Below, piece after piece: positions 33,350 through 40,092 of a stretch of DNA of 50,083 nt (its first letter is position 1; each line of letters opens with the position of its first letter). The notes below the pieces were generated by a model. It was not told the DNA's origin. It made no database searches and worked only from the letters and a program-made list of their open reading frames with translations. Both the position numbers and the translations under genes were made by a program. The stretch is from an uncultured Candidatus Woesearchaeota archaeon (GTDB lineage Archaea; Nanobdellota; Nanobdellia; Woesearchaeales; GW2011-AR9): the NCBI GenBank assembly GCA_902529885.1, contig CABZYC010000003.1, positions 1 through 50,083 of the forward strand. The letters are read 5' to 3'.

Positions 33350-34024
33350 ATGGATTACATAATTATACCAGCATATAATGAAGAGAAAGTTATTCAGAAA
33401 ACATTAGAAGAACTATATCAAGAAGGTTATACAAAAAATATAGTCATCATCGATGATTGTTCAACAGATAACACAAAAATGATTGCTACTAAATTCGGTT
33501 TTTTAATAGAACAAAAAATAAATAAAGGGCAAGGCGCAGCATTACGAACCGGTATTAAATATGCACTCGAACAAGGTGCAAAAAAAATAGTCACATTCGA
33601 TTCAGATGGACAACATGACCCAAAAGACATAAGACTAATATTAGACGAATTAGATAAATTCGAAGTTGTCTTAGGTTCAAGATTTATTGGGCAAACAACA
33701 AATTTACCTTTCTTAAGAAGGGTTATGTTGAAAGGATCAGTTATACTTTGCAGATTATTTTATGGATTGAAATTAACAGATAGCCACAATGGCCTAAGAG
33801 GATTTAGATCAGAATCAGCATCAAAAATAATGATTACAGAAGACAGAATGTTACATGCATCAGAAATATTACAACGAATCTCCGAACAAAAATTTTCATA
33901 TACGGAAGTTCCAGTTCATATTAGATACACAGAATACAGTTTAAAAAAAGGCCAAAGCATATGGAATGCTTTCAATATTCTAAAAGGAATGATAAAATTA
34001 AAAATTTATTCTAAGCAAGAATAA
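33350..34024 (+). CDS. Family 2 glycosyltransferase (dolichyl-phosphate sugar synthase-like)
   Basis: YIIIPAYNEEKVIQKTLEEL, VIIDDCSTDNT, NKGQGAALRTGI, FDSDGQHDP, LGSRF. Confidence 0.9.
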   Translation: MDYIIIPAYNEEKVIQKTLEELYQEGYTKNIVIIDDCSTDNTKMIATKFGFLIEQKINKGQGAALRTGIKYALEQGAKKIVTFDSDGQHDPKDIRLILDELDKFEVVLGSRFIGQTTNLPFLRRVMLKGSVILCRLFYGLKLTDSHNGLRGFRSESASKIMITEDRMLHASEILQRISEQKFSYTEVPVHIRYTEYSLKKGQSIWNAFNILKGMIKLKIYSKQE

Positions 34025-36501
34025 TCACTTTCCCAAATCATAACTTTACCAACACTATTTGATTGACCAGTATATAACAAGTTGTAACAATCAGATGAAC
34101 CAACATAATACATATTAGCAAACATTCCACCTACCAGTTCCACCGAAGAAAGATAACCTGTAGATTTTGTACTATCAATGTATATGCCAAGGCCAGTGTC
34201 TACATCATTGAAAATGATATTGTTGTCAACTTGTACTACCTCAAGATCATAATTCCCTGAAACATTGACTGCCCCAGTAGATTTTGTGTAGACTACAGTC
34301 AAACTTAATGATTGAACATTAACCTCACAGAACAATTCATCATCACCACTACAAGAAAATGAAGATAACAATTGAGGATATGGAGAGATATAATTATCTC
34401 CTCCTTGCTGCATACCATTATATTCATTCACTGCAATAGAATCAGTTAAACCATAATCATTCTTTAACATTGATAAAGCTTCAGAAGCAGGAAGACCATG
34501 AACAGCTTGAAACATTTCTGCACGAGTGAAATTCCATGCACCAAAATGGCCCCAAACAGAGGATTTACCTACCATATCCCCACTTGCAACCACTATACTA
34601 TTGTCTGCATCACAGTGAGTATAATCTAATGTTTCCATTGGAAGGCCTAGCTCAATAAAAACCTTTTCGGCACCAGCTAAAGGAAGTACAACGATGGTTT
34701 CTAGTATATCTATTGTTTCTTGGTATCCACCAGTATGATTAACTAATGTTTCAAAAGCAGTGTTTTGTCCACAGTTTAACATCCTAATTATACCAGTCGA
34801 CAGATATTCATTACTAGACAATGCCTTCCCAACCCAATACGCATTATAACCAACTTGAGTACCACCATCGAAAGTTACAGGGCGGTCTGCCACAGACCTG
34901 AACCAATAACCAAAGTCCCACCAAGAAGTCATAATCACGTCTTCAGAAACATTATCACGAACAAAAGTTAGACTATTATACCAACCATCATCCATACTAG
35001 GTACAGAAGATTGTGCAATCACTACACCAGAAGATATAGATGGAAGGAAGATAATACTTACAACTATTAGTGAAACCAATTTAGTTATGTTTACAGGTAT
35101 CTTTAAACTATCAAAAGCTGCTTTTGGGACTACACATAGAATAAACTGTACAAAATAAGCTAACCCAATTATAAATGGGAAGATTACCAATAAAATGAAC
35201 CTTATACCTTTACCAGTAGTATAAATTGCTGCTAACCACCAAATAAGGAGATACACTGCAATAAAATAATCTCTTTTTTTGTATGCCAAATATAATGCAT
35301 AACAAGTTCCAATTAAAGATAAAATTAAGATTAATTGACCACCAAGTTGACTTATTACACGATCAATACCAACTGCATTCAATTCTGCAACGGTTGTAAA
35401 AATGTTTGGCCATAAACTAATAACTGCTACACTCTTGAAATTTAATAACGAGTTTAATGGTTGTAGATATGCCGTGAAAAAATTGGAAGGTGACGTGAAA
35501 AGACCAGTTGAAATAAAAGTGACTATGTGAAAAATAATTGCCCGATGTAAACCAACTTCCTTTTTTTGAACTAATTTCAATATTAAGTCCACAACTATTG
35601 CAAAAGTGAATAATACAAGTGTAAACCACCAAGCACTCCAAGCATAGGAATACACACCCATTAAAAAACCAGATAATGCTGCTGCAACAAGCGCAGTTTT
35701 ACCTTTACCTAAACGGTAAAGCCAAATTGTTAAAAATGGAAATAAAAGAACGTAAATATCTGTATCGCTTGATTCACCAGTTGTTCGAGATACAAAAAAC
35801 ATGGAAGTTGCCAGCACTACTCCCGCAACAAGAGCAGCAAGAGGACTTAATTCTCTCGAGAAAAATAAGTATGCAGAGAAAACTGTCAAAGTCACCATCA
35901 ATACGCCTACCATGAAAAAAGAATAATTTAATGTGAAGTCGCCAAATAGGTTTAGAAACTTATGCCATAAAGAAGAGATGGTTGCATGAAATGTATCACC
36001 ATAATCTCTACCTAGCGGTGCTAAACGATAAGAGTCAACCACATTACCCTCTTCACCAATGGTATCACCAGCCATGCCATATTCAAGCTCATAATATACT
36101 TGCCGTTGATAATGATAAGGATCAATACCCAATAAATAAGTCTGACCGTTTTCATCTTGGTACACAGAACGAATCTGTTCTGACAATAACCCCACCTGTT
36201 CATTTAATTCTACCTGATTATCTGATACAAACGTGGCTAACTCCTTATCAATCAAAACCTGTTTGTTAGCATCAGGTAAGTTTGGATACTGTTGATTTAT
36301 AGAAGAAGCAATCTGCCCTTCATAAAAATTCATTACATTGATCTCCGCCTGTGTATCTGCTAAAGGGAGATATAATGGTTGAACACGAGTCCAAACAGTG
36401 AAAGATAATAAAGCTAAAAGTAACACAAAGTAAACATACTTCATGGGTATTTTAGAGATCGTAGTACGAAATGTTTCGTAATATTGAGATAACTGTTTCA
36501 T
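34006..36501 (-). CDS. aglB: Oligosaccharyltransferase STT3/AglB
   Basis: 831 aa, multi-TM N-terminal half with TGESSDTD, catalytic TSWWDFGYWFRSVADRPVTFDGG (WWDxG). Confidence 0.92.
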   Translation of the reverse strand: MKQLSQYYETFRTTISKIPMKYVYFVLLLALLSFTVWTRVQPLYLPLADTQAEINVMNFYEGQIASSINQQYPNLPDANKQVLIDKELATFVSDNQVELNEQVGLLSEQIRSVYQDENGQTYLLGIDPYHYQRQVYYELEYGMAGDTIGEEGNVVDSYRLAPLGRDYGDTFHATISSLWHKFLNLFGDFTLNYSFFMVGVLMVTLTVFSAYLFFSRELSPLAALVAGVVLATSMFFVSRTTGESSDTDIYVLLFPFLTIWLYRLGKGKTALVAAALSGFLMGVYSYAWSAWWFTLVLFTFAIVVDLILKLVQKKEVGLHRAIIFHIVTFISTGLFTSPSNFFTAYLQPLNSLLNFKSVAVISLWPNIFTTVAELNAVGIDRVISQLGGQLILILSLIGTCYALYLAYKKRDYFIAVYLLIWWLAAIYTTGKGIRFILLVIFPFIIGLAYFVQFILCVVPKAAFDSLKIPVNITKLVSLIVVSIIFLPSISSGVVIAQSSVPSMDDGWYNSLTFVRDNVSEDVIMTSWWDFGYWFRSVADRPVTFDGGTQVGYNAYWVGKALSSNEYLSTGIIRMLNCGQNTAFETLVNHTGGYQETIDILETIVVLPLAGAEKVFIELGLPMETLDYTHCDADNSIVVASGDMVGKSSVWGHFGAWNFTRAEMFQAVHGLPASEALSMLKNDYGLTDSIAVNEYNGMQQGGDNYISPYPQLLSSFSCSGDDELFCEVNVQSLSLTVVYTKSTGAVNVSGNYDLEVVQVDNNIIFNDVDTGLGIYIDSTKSTGYLSSVELVGGMFANMYYVGSSDCYNLLYTGQSNSVGKVMIWESDYSCLE

Positions 36502-36550: not shown

Positions 36551-36574
36551 AAAAAAAAAAAGGTAAAAAACCTT
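36551..36574 (-). terminator. Intrinsic-like terminator of S-layer gene
   Basis: Minus strand AAGGT(TTTTT)ACCTT followed by an uninterrupted T-tract of about 11, starting in the stop codon. Confidence 0.7.
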
Positions 36575-39140
36575 ATTCTACACTACTGATAGAAGCACTG
36601 CTTGAGGTTGAACCTTCAACAGTTGATTCCATACCAGATAATTCGCTTGCACGAGTAGCTAATACTTCACCAGCTAAAACGGTGTCATCAGCACTGTAAC
36701 CTGCAACTAACATAGCTACACTGTCACCATTCTCAAACAACTTAATCCGAGCAACACCAGGAGTGAATCCTTCTGAACAGTCGCTAGGACTACCCATTAA
36801 TTCAGCAGCAACAGTGTTTACACATGGACCACCAACAACGATTAAGTTCTGAGCACTCACGGAACTAATTTCACTGTCAAACTTGTTTGCGTCAACAGGA
36901 ATAGCTACACGTTCAGCACTACCACTCGAAGTAGCTACACTGTATGTTGCACCACTGGTTACATAGATTTTAACTTCAGCTTGCTCACTAGGTACCTGAA
37001 TCTCGTAATCTTCAGGGGATGAAGAACTACTTGAATCTTCAACAACTTTACTTCCGTAGAATGTACGGTAGATGGTTAAGTCGCTATCTTCAGGATCAGA
37101 TTCACTTGTTTCGTTGGTCATTACAGTTTCATTGATACTTGGGTCAATTTCACTGTCTGAATCAACTGAAAAGTTACCAGCAAACACAACGACACTCGCG
37201 TCAGCAGTATCATCATACTTGTCTGTATCATCTACAGTCACAGTAATTGCTAACTCTGCATCAGTAACACCACTATCATTCCAGTTACCTTCAGCACCTA
37301 ATGAAGCATTCATTAAAGCCATACTGTTTAATGTTGAAAACTGTACTAGGTTGTTATCATCAGTACGAACATCCAATGTTACCGCATTACCTTGAGCAGT
37401 TGCATCAAAACCTAAACCTGATTCAGCTAAGCTTGCACCAGTATACATAATGTTCCAATCATCAGCTGAACTAGCATCTGTACTTTCTGAAAACTGAGTT
37501 AAAGTTCCAGCAGTGTCATTTAGATACTTTGTACCGTTACTAAATGTAAAGGTTGTACCACCTAATTTAATATCAAAAGTACAATCTGTACTATCAGTTA
37601 AACTACGCTCGATTGATTCACCACTGATTAAGTTAGTAAAGTATACTTTAGCATTGTCTTCGTCACACTGGTCAGCACTGTCGTAACGTAATAAGTAAGA
37701 CTTAGCATCGTTATCAGCAGTTGAAGGATCTTCGTTGTGTAAGAAGAAGTAGTCATCTTCAGTAATACTATAGTTCATAATGTTTAGAACAAAAGCTTCA
37801 TCTTCATCTTCACCAAGCAAGATTACATCATAATCTTCATCACCGTACGCAACATCAAATGAAACGTCTCCACCCTGTAATTCTAGGTCAATACTTAACT
37901 GTGCGTCACTTTCAGTGTAATATACGTCTAACTGATCCATTGAAGGAATGTACATCTCTGCAAATTCAATATCCCAGTTTTTAGTGAATAATAAGTCAGC
38001 TTCATCTAATTCTGAATCTTCACTTAGTTTGTCACCAGCAGCCAAGTAATAATCATCTTGTGCAGTAATGGTAATATTAAATGAATCAATGGATACTTCA
38101 TCAGAGGTTAATGTTTCATCAAACATAACAGCTAAACCGTTAATTGTTTCTTCGTTAACTTTTACACTTCCACCAGATGCACTGTCAGTTAAAACGATCT
38201 TGTCAGCACCTAAGAAGAACTTAGCACGATGAATACCACCAGCATACTCTTGGTAAGTAATATCATATACACCAACAGTTAAACCACTGTCTAATACATC
38301 AGTATCACCATCTTCTAATTTGTTGGTTGTCTCACCATTAATTACAAACTGTACTTCTTCGGTTGAACTTGAACCAGTTGTATCTACGGAAAGTAAGGTT
38401 ACTTCGTAATCTTCACCATCAATCTCGAATGTTGCAGTTTCAGCTTCTTCTAATGAACCACTCACAGAACCACCCATAAGAGTTAACTTAGGACCGTTTG
38501 TTTCGTTCTCAGCCAATACAATTGTGTAAGTTACACCAAATAAAGTGATTTCCTCATCTTCAATATCTTCATAACGGTCGTTATCATCAATATCTGATTC
38601 TAAAGCAGTAGTGAACTCAACTTCATACTTAGCAAACATATCGTTGTTTTCAATTAAGTATAAGTAATCAAGAACATCGTCTTCTTCTTGGAAAGCCACA
38701 GTAGGAGAATTTCCATCAGGGTTCAAGTATAAGTACTGTTCAAATTCAGCAGTTCCTTTACTATTAGCAACTTCACCATCAGCTAAAGCATCTAATTCAC
38801 TATCACTTAAGTATGACTCAATATCATCTAAAGATTCACCAACTTCTAAAAAGTTTGAACTTGTTTCAGCTAACCAACTGTCACCTTCAATTACAGTTAC
38901 AGTAGATTCACTGTCAGAACCAGATAAAAACATGCTGTTAGTAATATCGATTGCAGCAGCAGTGTCAGCAGACTTTGCGTTGTCACCAATTACAATATAA
39001 CCGTTAAACGTTCCACCATCAACGAACATATCAGGATATTCGTTTAGGTCTGCAGCTAAAGCACCCATCATGGTTGCACCAAGCATGGTTGCACCTGTTG
39101 CTACAGCAGTAATCTTCTTAAATAATTTATTTGTATTCAT
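36573..39140 (-). CDS. S-layer protein (855 aa)
   Basis: Signal peptide MNTNKLFKKITAVATGATMLGATMMGALA, DLNEYPDMFVDGGTFNGYIVIGDNAKSADTAAAIDI; acidic beta-rich; NTVAAELMGSPSDCSEGFTPGVARIKLFENGDSVAMLVAGYSADDT as in archaeal S-layer C-termini. Confidence 0.88.
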   Translation of the reverse strand: MNTNKLFKKITAVATGATMLGATMMGALAADLNEYPDMFVDGGTFNGYIVIGDNAKSADTAAAIDITNSMFLSGSDSESTVTVIEGDSWLAETSSNFLEVGESLDDIESYLSDSELDALADGEVANSKGTAEFEQYLYLNPDGNSPTVAFQEEDDVLDYLYLIENNDMFAKYEVEFTTALESDIDDNDRYEDIEDEEITLFGVTYTIVLAENETNGPKLTLMGGSVSGSLEEAETATFEIDGEDYEVTLLSVDTTGSSSTEEVQFVINGETTNKLEDGDTDVLDSGLTVGVYDITYQEYAGGIHRAKFFLGADKIVLTDSASGGSVKVNEETINGLAVMFDETLTSDEVSIDSFNITITAQDDYYLAAGDKLSEDSELDEADLLFTKNWDIEFAEMYIPSMDQLDVYYTESDAQLSIDLELQGGDVSFDVAYGDEDYDVILLGEDEDEAFVLNIMNYSITEDDYFFLHNEDPSTADNDAKSYLLRYDSADQCDEDNAKVYFTNLISGESIERSLTDSTDCTFDIKLGGTTFTFSNGTKYLNDTAGTLTQFSESTDASSADDWNIMYTGASLAESGLGFDATAQGNAVTLDVRTDDNNLVQFSTLNSMALMNASLGAEGNWNDSGVTDAELAITVTVDDTDKYDDTADASVVVFAGNFSVDSDSEIDPSINETVMTNETSESDPEDSDLTIYRTFYGSKVVEDSSSSSSPEDYEIQVPSEQAEVKIYVTSGATYSVATSSGSAERVAIPVDANKFDSEISSVSAQNLIVVGGPCVNTVAAELMGSPSDCSEGFTPGVARIKLFENGDSVAMLVAGYSADDTVLAGEVLATRASELSGMESTVEGSTSSSASISSVE

Positions 39141-39268
39141 AGTATATATTACACCTTTAATACTTTACTGGCACTAGCACCACCCATAAAAATTCCGAAA
39201 AGGACTCGATAGAAATCCTTTTTCGTCCCCATGGACGATACGCGTACGTATTGTAAAGTATACATTTA
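39141..39268 (-). promoter_or_regulatory. Predicted long structured 5' leader of S-layer mRNA
   Basis: Three consecutive hairpins: 39238-39251 (ATACG/CGTAT), 39224-39237 (CGTCC/GGACG), 39196-39225 (CGAAAAGGA/TCCTTTTTCG); SD-like AAAGGTG upstream of ATG. Confidence 0.6.
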
Positions 39269-39298: not shown

Positions 39299-39338
39299 CC
39301 TTTCGAAAAAATAAGCCTGTTCAAACACACTAAATCTT

Positions 39339-39353: not shown

Positions 39354-39453
39354 CATACAATATCCCCTGTTTTAGCGTGTCATGACCGCCCAGTAACTAA
39401 TAGAACTATCTTCCATCAAAAGATGTATAAAGTGGAGTATACCAATCTAACAC

Positions 39454-40092
39454 ATGATCCCGAAAAATCTCCCATCATTCGTGAGAGACCATTATAAAAA
39501 TATTAAACAACTTACACCCATCCAACAAAAGTGTGTAAACAACGGTCTTCTTGAAGAGAGCAATATTATTGCGTGTGCACCAACCGCTAGTGGGAAAACA
39601 CTAGTAGGCACAATGGCTATGATGTCCAAAATTGATAAAGGAAAAGTAATCTACATTGCACCTTTACGGGCACTTGCCCAAGAAAAATATGCTGCTTACA
39701 AAAAATTGTTAGAAAACACAGAGTATAATTGTATGATTAGTACAGGTGAGAGTGAACAGTCTGAATATCTCGGGAGATATGATCTATTAATCTTAACTAC
39801 TGAAAAACTTGACTCTTGCATTAGACAAGGTGCATCTTGGATTAATGAGATTGCATGCGTGGTCATTGATGAAATACACTTATTACACGATACCTCAAGA
39901 GGACCAACATTAGAAATTATCCTTACTTTACTTATGACCTTAACAAAATGTCAATTGATTGGATTATCTGCAACGATCGGGAACCCAGAAGAACTTGCAA
40001 AATGGCTTGATGCAACATTAGTACAAGATTCCTGGAGACCAGTAGAACTTAAGAAGGGGATCTATACAAACAAACTAGAATTTTTCAGCTAG
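39454..40092 (+). CDS. Hel308/Ski2-like helicase RecA1 domain only (truncated or split)
   Basis: Q-motif LTPIQQKCV, APTASGKT, APLRALAQEK, TTEKLDS, DEIHLL, LSATIGN, then WRPVELKKGIYTNKLEFFS stop; no motifs IV-VI. Confidence 0.82.
   Translation: MIPKNLPSFVRDHYKNIKQLTPIQQKCVNNGLLEESNIIACAPTASGKTLVGTMAMMSKIDKGKVIYIAPLRALAQEKYAAYKKLLENTEYNCMISTGESEQSEYLGRYDLLILTTEKLDSCIRQGASWINEIACVVIDEIHLLHDTSRGPTLEIILTLLMTLTKCQLIGLSATIGNPEELAKWLDATLVQDSWRPVELKKGIYTNKLEFFS

Follow-up and report, generated by a model that had tools for sequence, protein, structure and literature searches.

Regulation of the S-layer gene slpA of Thermus thermophilus acts on its untranslated leader. The S-layer gene analysed here is likewise predicted to have a long, probably regulated leader; the Thermus system, which is bacterial and unrelated in both protein and RNA, offers a lead rather than a test. 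The nearest working analogue is the leader of L7Ae, a protein that, in archaea, autoregulates its own mRNA by binding to it (PMC5539422). As in the L7Ae k-turn leaders of Sulfolobus and other archaea, we are dealing with the 5' leader of a single archaeal gene, defined by BRE/TATA and carrying a Shine-Dalgarno (SD) motif, and the bound-protein mechanism is the model that, by analogy, we propose for the S-layer element (PMC5539422). The two differ in their position and gene: the L7Ae site is a k-turn adjoining the SD of a ribosomal-protein gene, whereas the S-layer element lies 40–118 nt from the ATG of a surface-protein gene. Moreover, a k-turn (a 3-nt bulge and, next to it on the 3' side, sheared G.A pairs in tandem, with GA on both strands) was not found in the element in 37 sequences; on the opposite strand, a single U stands between AAAA and CGAA.

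The leaders of ribosomal-protein genes, including the archaeal S15, eL15 and L4 (PMC7247131), resemble the S-layer element in being gene-specific, lineage-restricted and covarying, and in having been found by comparative genomics. In contrast to those leaders, the element precedes a gene for a secreted protein, and no second match in the genome, rRNA included, suggests rRNA mimicry. Woesearchaeota, DPANN and S-layers are not mentioned in that study (PMC7247131). The 5' UTR of Haloferax HVO_1309, which contains a bulge-helix-bulge (BHB) intron (PMC7714728), shares with the S-layer leader a 4-bp helix, asymmetric loops and the setting of a long archaeal 5' UTR, but its canonical BHB differs from the element in loop sizes and in the sequence invariance seen here. 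The slaA, slaB and alba 5' UTRs of Sulfolobus, which belong to abundant archaeal proteins, have been used as expression enhancers; they contain an SD motif and raise protein yield (PMC11627041). What counts in that work is that they bear an SD (the UTR of alba has a length of 14 nt), whereas the S-layer element is a covarying structure. This was the sole relevant study that our search of open-access papers on S-layer leaders returned, and the search found no such element described for an S-layer gene or for DPANN archaea.

The S-layer gene and its predicted leader

The window, i.e. the whole 50,083-nt stretch of DNA analysed, is contig C3 of a 677-kb woesearchaeal genome (G000) that is 95% complete. 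Most family members have genomes of 0.9–1.5 Mb, so that G000 is about one half to two thirds of their size. The S-layer protein gene occupies positions 36573–39140 of the minus strand and encodes 855 aa with a signal peptide-like N terminus and the Pfam domain S_layer_C (PF05124; E 1.4e-10, 41.5 bits against a curated cut-off of 23.9). Homologues were present in 92 of 99 related genomes, the closest at 40–50% protein identity. Downstream, on the same strand, lies a gene for an STT3/AglB oligosaccharyltransferase (34006–36501; Pfam STT3, E 3e-24). On the other side, a DEAD helicase ORF starts at 39454, divergent from the S-layer gene. This ORF (39454–40092, plus strand) has just 212 aa, and the genes after it lie on the other strand; it may represent a helicase that has been truncated or split. 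At L107, too, the S-layer gene has a divergent helicase fragment upstream of it.

The initial annotation placed a BRE/TATA upstream of the S-layer gene and derived from it a start near 39268 and a leader of about 128 nt. We located this promoter, CGAAAGG-CTTATAAA, at 39305–39291 of the minus strand, which gives the same predicted transcription start and leader length, and found it also in relatives. When the upstream regions of about 70 S-layer homologues were compared, almost all members of the window's family had a single GCGAAAGRCTTATAAA or close variant of it, situated 147–248 nt upstream of the ATG. Many of the order's other families have similar boxes about as far from the gene. Leader lengths inferred from these promoters, with a TATA-to-start rule of 29 nt, were 118–219 nt (median 151) in 36 family members. 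The conservation of the promoter thus argues for a long S-layer leader in all relatives.

Further upstream of the S-layer TATA box, many relatives (L003, L004, L006, L007, L009 and others) contain the palindrome TAGAACNNNGTTCTA followed by TCATTTTAAAATGA-like repeats. The palindrome, which is present in zero to two copies per genome and also at genes other than that of the S-layer, is probably a transcription factor site. The window retains, at about 39395–39410, only the half-like GATAGTTCTATT of it.

The conserved leader element

The leader almost certainly harbours a conserved, S-layer-specific RNA element. In the window, the covariance model (R2) spans positions 39172–39245 of the minus strand with 49.4 bits and E 1e-8, and covers one long imperfect hairpin; the G000 leader is among the more diverged, as scores reach up to 75 bits elsewhere in the family. 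The element of about 75 nt is built from a lower stem, an asymmetric loop, a CGAA/UUCG helix, a second small loop and an apical stem, and the family leaders share the pattern CGUCUAUAAAAU-CGAA-AAGG...loop...CC-N-UUCG-GAAU-UUUUAUGGACG. The 5' arm of the lower stem (CGUCCAUGGGG, 39227–39237, columns 10–20) pairs with the 3' arm (UUUUAUGGGUG, 39181–39191, columns 64–74) in both the MFE fold and the alignment. Double changes were observed at 10 of its 11 pairs, and the window has GGGG.UUUU wobble pairs where its relatives have AAAA-UUUU. The core helix, with an asymmetric A-rich loop on either side, is formed by CGAA (39222–39225, columns 22–25; 36–37 of 37 sequences) and UUCG (39196–39199, columns 56–59; 34–37 of 37). 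The 3' asymmetric loop that follows, GAAU at 39192–39195, has the consensus N-A-A-Y, with A61 in 34 of the 37 sequences and A62 and Y63 in all of them. The apical stem-loop (39201–39219, columns 28–54) has a covarying stem, and a loop whose sequence and length are free across the family. Over the many genera of the family, the CGAA, the AA after it, the UUCG and the N-A-A-Y after it are near-invariant, whereas in the outer and apical stems the letters are free and pairing alone is kept. The lower stem starts 8–68 nt (median 33.5) after the predicted transcription start and ends 40–118 nt upstream of the ATG, from which it is separated by an unconserved linker.

The window leader folded at −39.3 kcal/mol, compared with −26.2 ± 3.3 kcal/mol for shuffled sequences (z −4.0), and was more stable than all of 200 dinucleotide shuffles. 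Three adjacent hairpins had been proposed in this region. Their sequences are present, but the MFE fold is one long hairpin and not three. Hairpins 1 (39238–39251) and 2 (39224–39237) had an ensemble pairing probability of 0.00 and no counterpart in relatives, and a fold constrained to contain them was less favourable by about 6 kcal/mol (−32.4 vs −38.6 kcal/mol); in the conserved fold, 39237–39227 pairs with 39191–39181 and not with itself. The suggested competition between hairpins 1 and 2 found no comparative support as a switch. Hairpin 3 (39196–39225) overlaps the apical arm of the long hairpin, and its nine stated pairs, read at these coordinates, include one A.C mismatch and one G-U. 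Its outer part, CGAA (39225–39222) with UUCG (39199–39196), is the conserved core, whereas the rest does not belong to it.

To evaluate covariation, we aligned 37 leaders with MAFFT on sequence only (alignment A1), took the structure from one member (L004) and counted it on all. Pairing was possible in 85.0% of cells, as opposed to 38–52% when the partner was slid by 1–3 columns, and 17 of 23 pairs showed double-sided changes. In a tree-aware null, where the columns evolved independently of one another along the tree and the number of changes was kept as observed, the pairing fraction was 0.701 ± 0.029 (observed 0.850) and the number of double-change cells was 33 ± 8 (observed 95); neither observed value was reached in 1000 simulations. 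The lower and apical helices each passed the pairing test separately (0/1000 each), and the apical stem had 60 double-change cells against 18.6 ± 6.1 in the null (0/1000). An R-scape-like all-pairs test, which was underpowered, gave no single pair with E < 0.05 (the best, E 0.32, was a true pair), so the support lies at the level of helices. The 4-bp core is near-invariant, and covariation therefore cannot test its pairs. The 37 elements folded at a mean z of −4.1, with 35 of them below −2, and stable folds, of −18 to −34 kcal/mol, were seen in all members.

Read in the S-layer sense, the alignment contained 146 G-U cells (163 expected from shuffling) and only 26 A-C cells (54 expected, range 38–69 in 2000 shuffles). 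That G-U is kept and A-C depleted indicates that the transcript in the S-layer sense is the selected form, and not DNA or antisense RNA; a DNA cruciform is disfavoured on the same grounds. We also considered a second promoter inside the element (TATAAAAT in many relatives), which was rejected because the box is lost in the window (ATGGGGA) and in others while the pairing persists. The initial annotation regarded the leader as a possible stability element or riboregulator, an idea that a lack of compensatory changes in relatives would have refuted. Such changes proved abundant and, together with the S-layer-specific single copy and the conserved promoter, they support the broad idea in part, whereas the proposed three-hairpin architecture is not supported.

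The covariance model located the element in 40 of the 51 family genomes (Woesearchaeota), and in 24 of the 26 of good quality. Strong matches occurred one per genome, before the S-layer gene, and the match in the window is the sole one in its own genome. Genomes with multiple S-layer-like genes (e.g. nine matches in G022) carry one element, the paralogues being without it. G019 (L080/L107), which was outside the training set, was found at E 1.6e-14. Searches covering 292 genomes at the level of the order and 378 at that of the class produced no credible match beyond the family. On inspection, weak matches in G300 (L102), G010:C10, G044:C44, G026:C2 and G088 lay inside or beside other genes, and that of L102 is a hairpin resembling a terminator, whose alignment to the model contains a large insert; the second matches in G026 and G044 and the only match in G010 are weak and chance-like. 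Most genomes without a match have no S-layer start on their contigs. In the good-quality genome G034 (L037), the element is truly absent while the promoter and the SD hairpin are present, a natural deletion which means that the element is dispensable in at least one lineage. When the window leader and 10 relatives were compared with Rfam 15, no family matched in a relevant way, even with E values as lax as 1–5 admitted.

The S-layer leaders of other families (L023, L024, L028, L041, L042, L049–L069) are strongly structured and unrelated in sequence to the element, with a mean fold z of −3.1 for 21 leaders of other families of the order. In several of them, AAGATAGCC recurs a short way upstream of the SD hairpin. 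Leader elements of their own may thus exist in other families.

The Shine-Dalgarno hairpin

Judging by its genomic occurrences, a second hairpin, around the Shine-Dalgarno motif, is S-layer-specific across the order. In the window it reads GUAUUA-AAGGUG-UAAUAU (39146–39163, minus strand), which is the local version of AAACAC-GGAGGU-GUGUUU in relatives, with arms changed on both sides, and it is not the local MFE. The AAAGGUG noted earlier about 10 nt before the AUG includes the SD AGGUG (39156–39152), which lies 11 nt from the ATG and matches the 3' end of the 16S rRNA of the same genome (...GGATCACCTCCTTTC; tail GAUCACCUCC). In most members, the hairpin encloses the SD, mostly leaving GGAG in the loop. 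The exact 16-mer AACACGGAGGTGTGTT occurred once per genome in 26 of the 51 family genomes, each time at the S-layer start, and zero times in the same genomes when read backwards. Of 119 genomes from the order, 38 contained the 14-mer AACACGGAGGTGTT, mostly once each, and, wherever coordinates were comparable, at the S-layer start, with G082 as an exception. An arm-swap test in other families gave an arm match of 5.81, above the maximum of 5.74 in 2000 permutations; within the window's family the test is uninformative because the arms hardly vary there.

Possible modes of action

The shape conserved in the family and its occurrence once per genome before the S-layer gene suggest that the element very probably controls the amount of coat protein made. 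We put the probability that it acts via a bound protein on the translation or stability of the S-layer mRNA at roughly 55%. According to this model, the leader of about 130 nt would combine a family-specific cis-acting element with a separate hairpin presenting the SD. A fixed core in a free frame points to a recognition site, and the putative protein partner could be a dedicated regulator, or else the S-layer precursor could bind its own leader. Such binding would set the translation or the lifetime of the mRNA, and the SD hairpin would serve as the ribosome-loading end. The unconserved linker of 40–118 nt favours a bound factor over direct base-pair masking of the SD.

A passive role is doubtful but has several observations on its side. 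The element could be a stability clamp, a long 5'-proximal hairpin that shields the mRNA from exonucleases with no specific partner. Very high abundance is to be expected of the S-layer mRNA, every member has the stable fold (−18 to −34 kcal/mol) within 8–68 nt (median 33.5) of the predicted start, and the leaders of other families are structured (mean z −3.1, 21 leaders) yet unrelated in sequence. However, the distance from the predicted start varies, and a clamp needs no fixed letters, so that the near-invariance of CGAA, AA, UUCG and AAY argues against it. The same invariance bears on the most interesting rival, a processing site in the form of a relaxed BHB, at which the archaeal splicing endonuclease would remove the apical stem-loop from the leader. 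The 4-bp central helix is there (CGAA/UUCG in 34–37 of 37 sequences), with an asymmetric loop 3' of the helix on each own strand, and there is an experimental precedent in the 46-nt intron of the 192-nt Haloferax 5' UTR (PMC7714728). Nevertheless, two 3-nt bulges on opposite strands, with only paired nucleotides facing them, were not found in the 37 sequences. On the 5' side, AA faces one nucleotide (a 2 × 1 loop), and on the 3' side NAAY faces a U (1 × 4), which leaves a 3-nt bulge only if U21 pairs with R60, as it can in 27 of 37. Since a BHB also needs no fixed sequence, yet the helix is invariant, we did not class the element as a BHB and consider processing unlikely.

It is quite improbable that the leader is a ligand or temperature switch, with the element as a small riboswitch or the SD hairpin as a thermosensor. 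The asymmetric internal loops are conserved and the hairpin encloses the SD in most members, but GGAG is mostly left in its loop, the linker is unconserved, and we saw no conserved alternative fold in which the element would pair with the SD. Occurrence at one gene per genome argues against a metabolite switch, as these usually sit on several. The UUCGGAAUUUUU that follows the apical hairpin in many members could make that hairpin plus U5 a terminator and the lower stem an antiterminator. Such transcription attenuation is very unlikely, because about 11 of 38 members have an interrupted U5, and in some of these the opposite arm has changed to match (AGGA/UUCU in L044 and L070; C20-G64 in L012); pairing is kept and the U run is not, so that the hairpin with an intact U run of an intrinsic terminator is not upheld across the 38 members. 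Finally, the window leader contains a 27-codon ORF (MGTKKDFYRVLFGIFMGGASASKVLKV; 39149–39232, minus strand; 38 codons from an earlier ATG) that ends just before the S-layer start codon. No comparable ORF or conserved peptide was present in 35 relatives, and a leader peptide is hardly credible.

Returning to the bound-protein model, we can extend it, as a tentative speculation that may well not hold, to a dedicated archaeal RNA-protein feedback: the family-specific leader RNA would be read by the S-layer precursor, or by a factor linked to secretion, and coat synthesis would thereby be matched to surface demand. In that case, it would possibly be the first cis-regulatory element to be described on an mRNA of DPANN archaea, and likewise the first for any archaeal S-layer gene. 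The alignment, the covariance model and point mutants of the element are ready for direct tests. The S-layer mRNA plausibly ranks with the most abundant messages in these minimal, probably host-dependent cells, and the conserved element would offer a handle on the control of their main surface protein.
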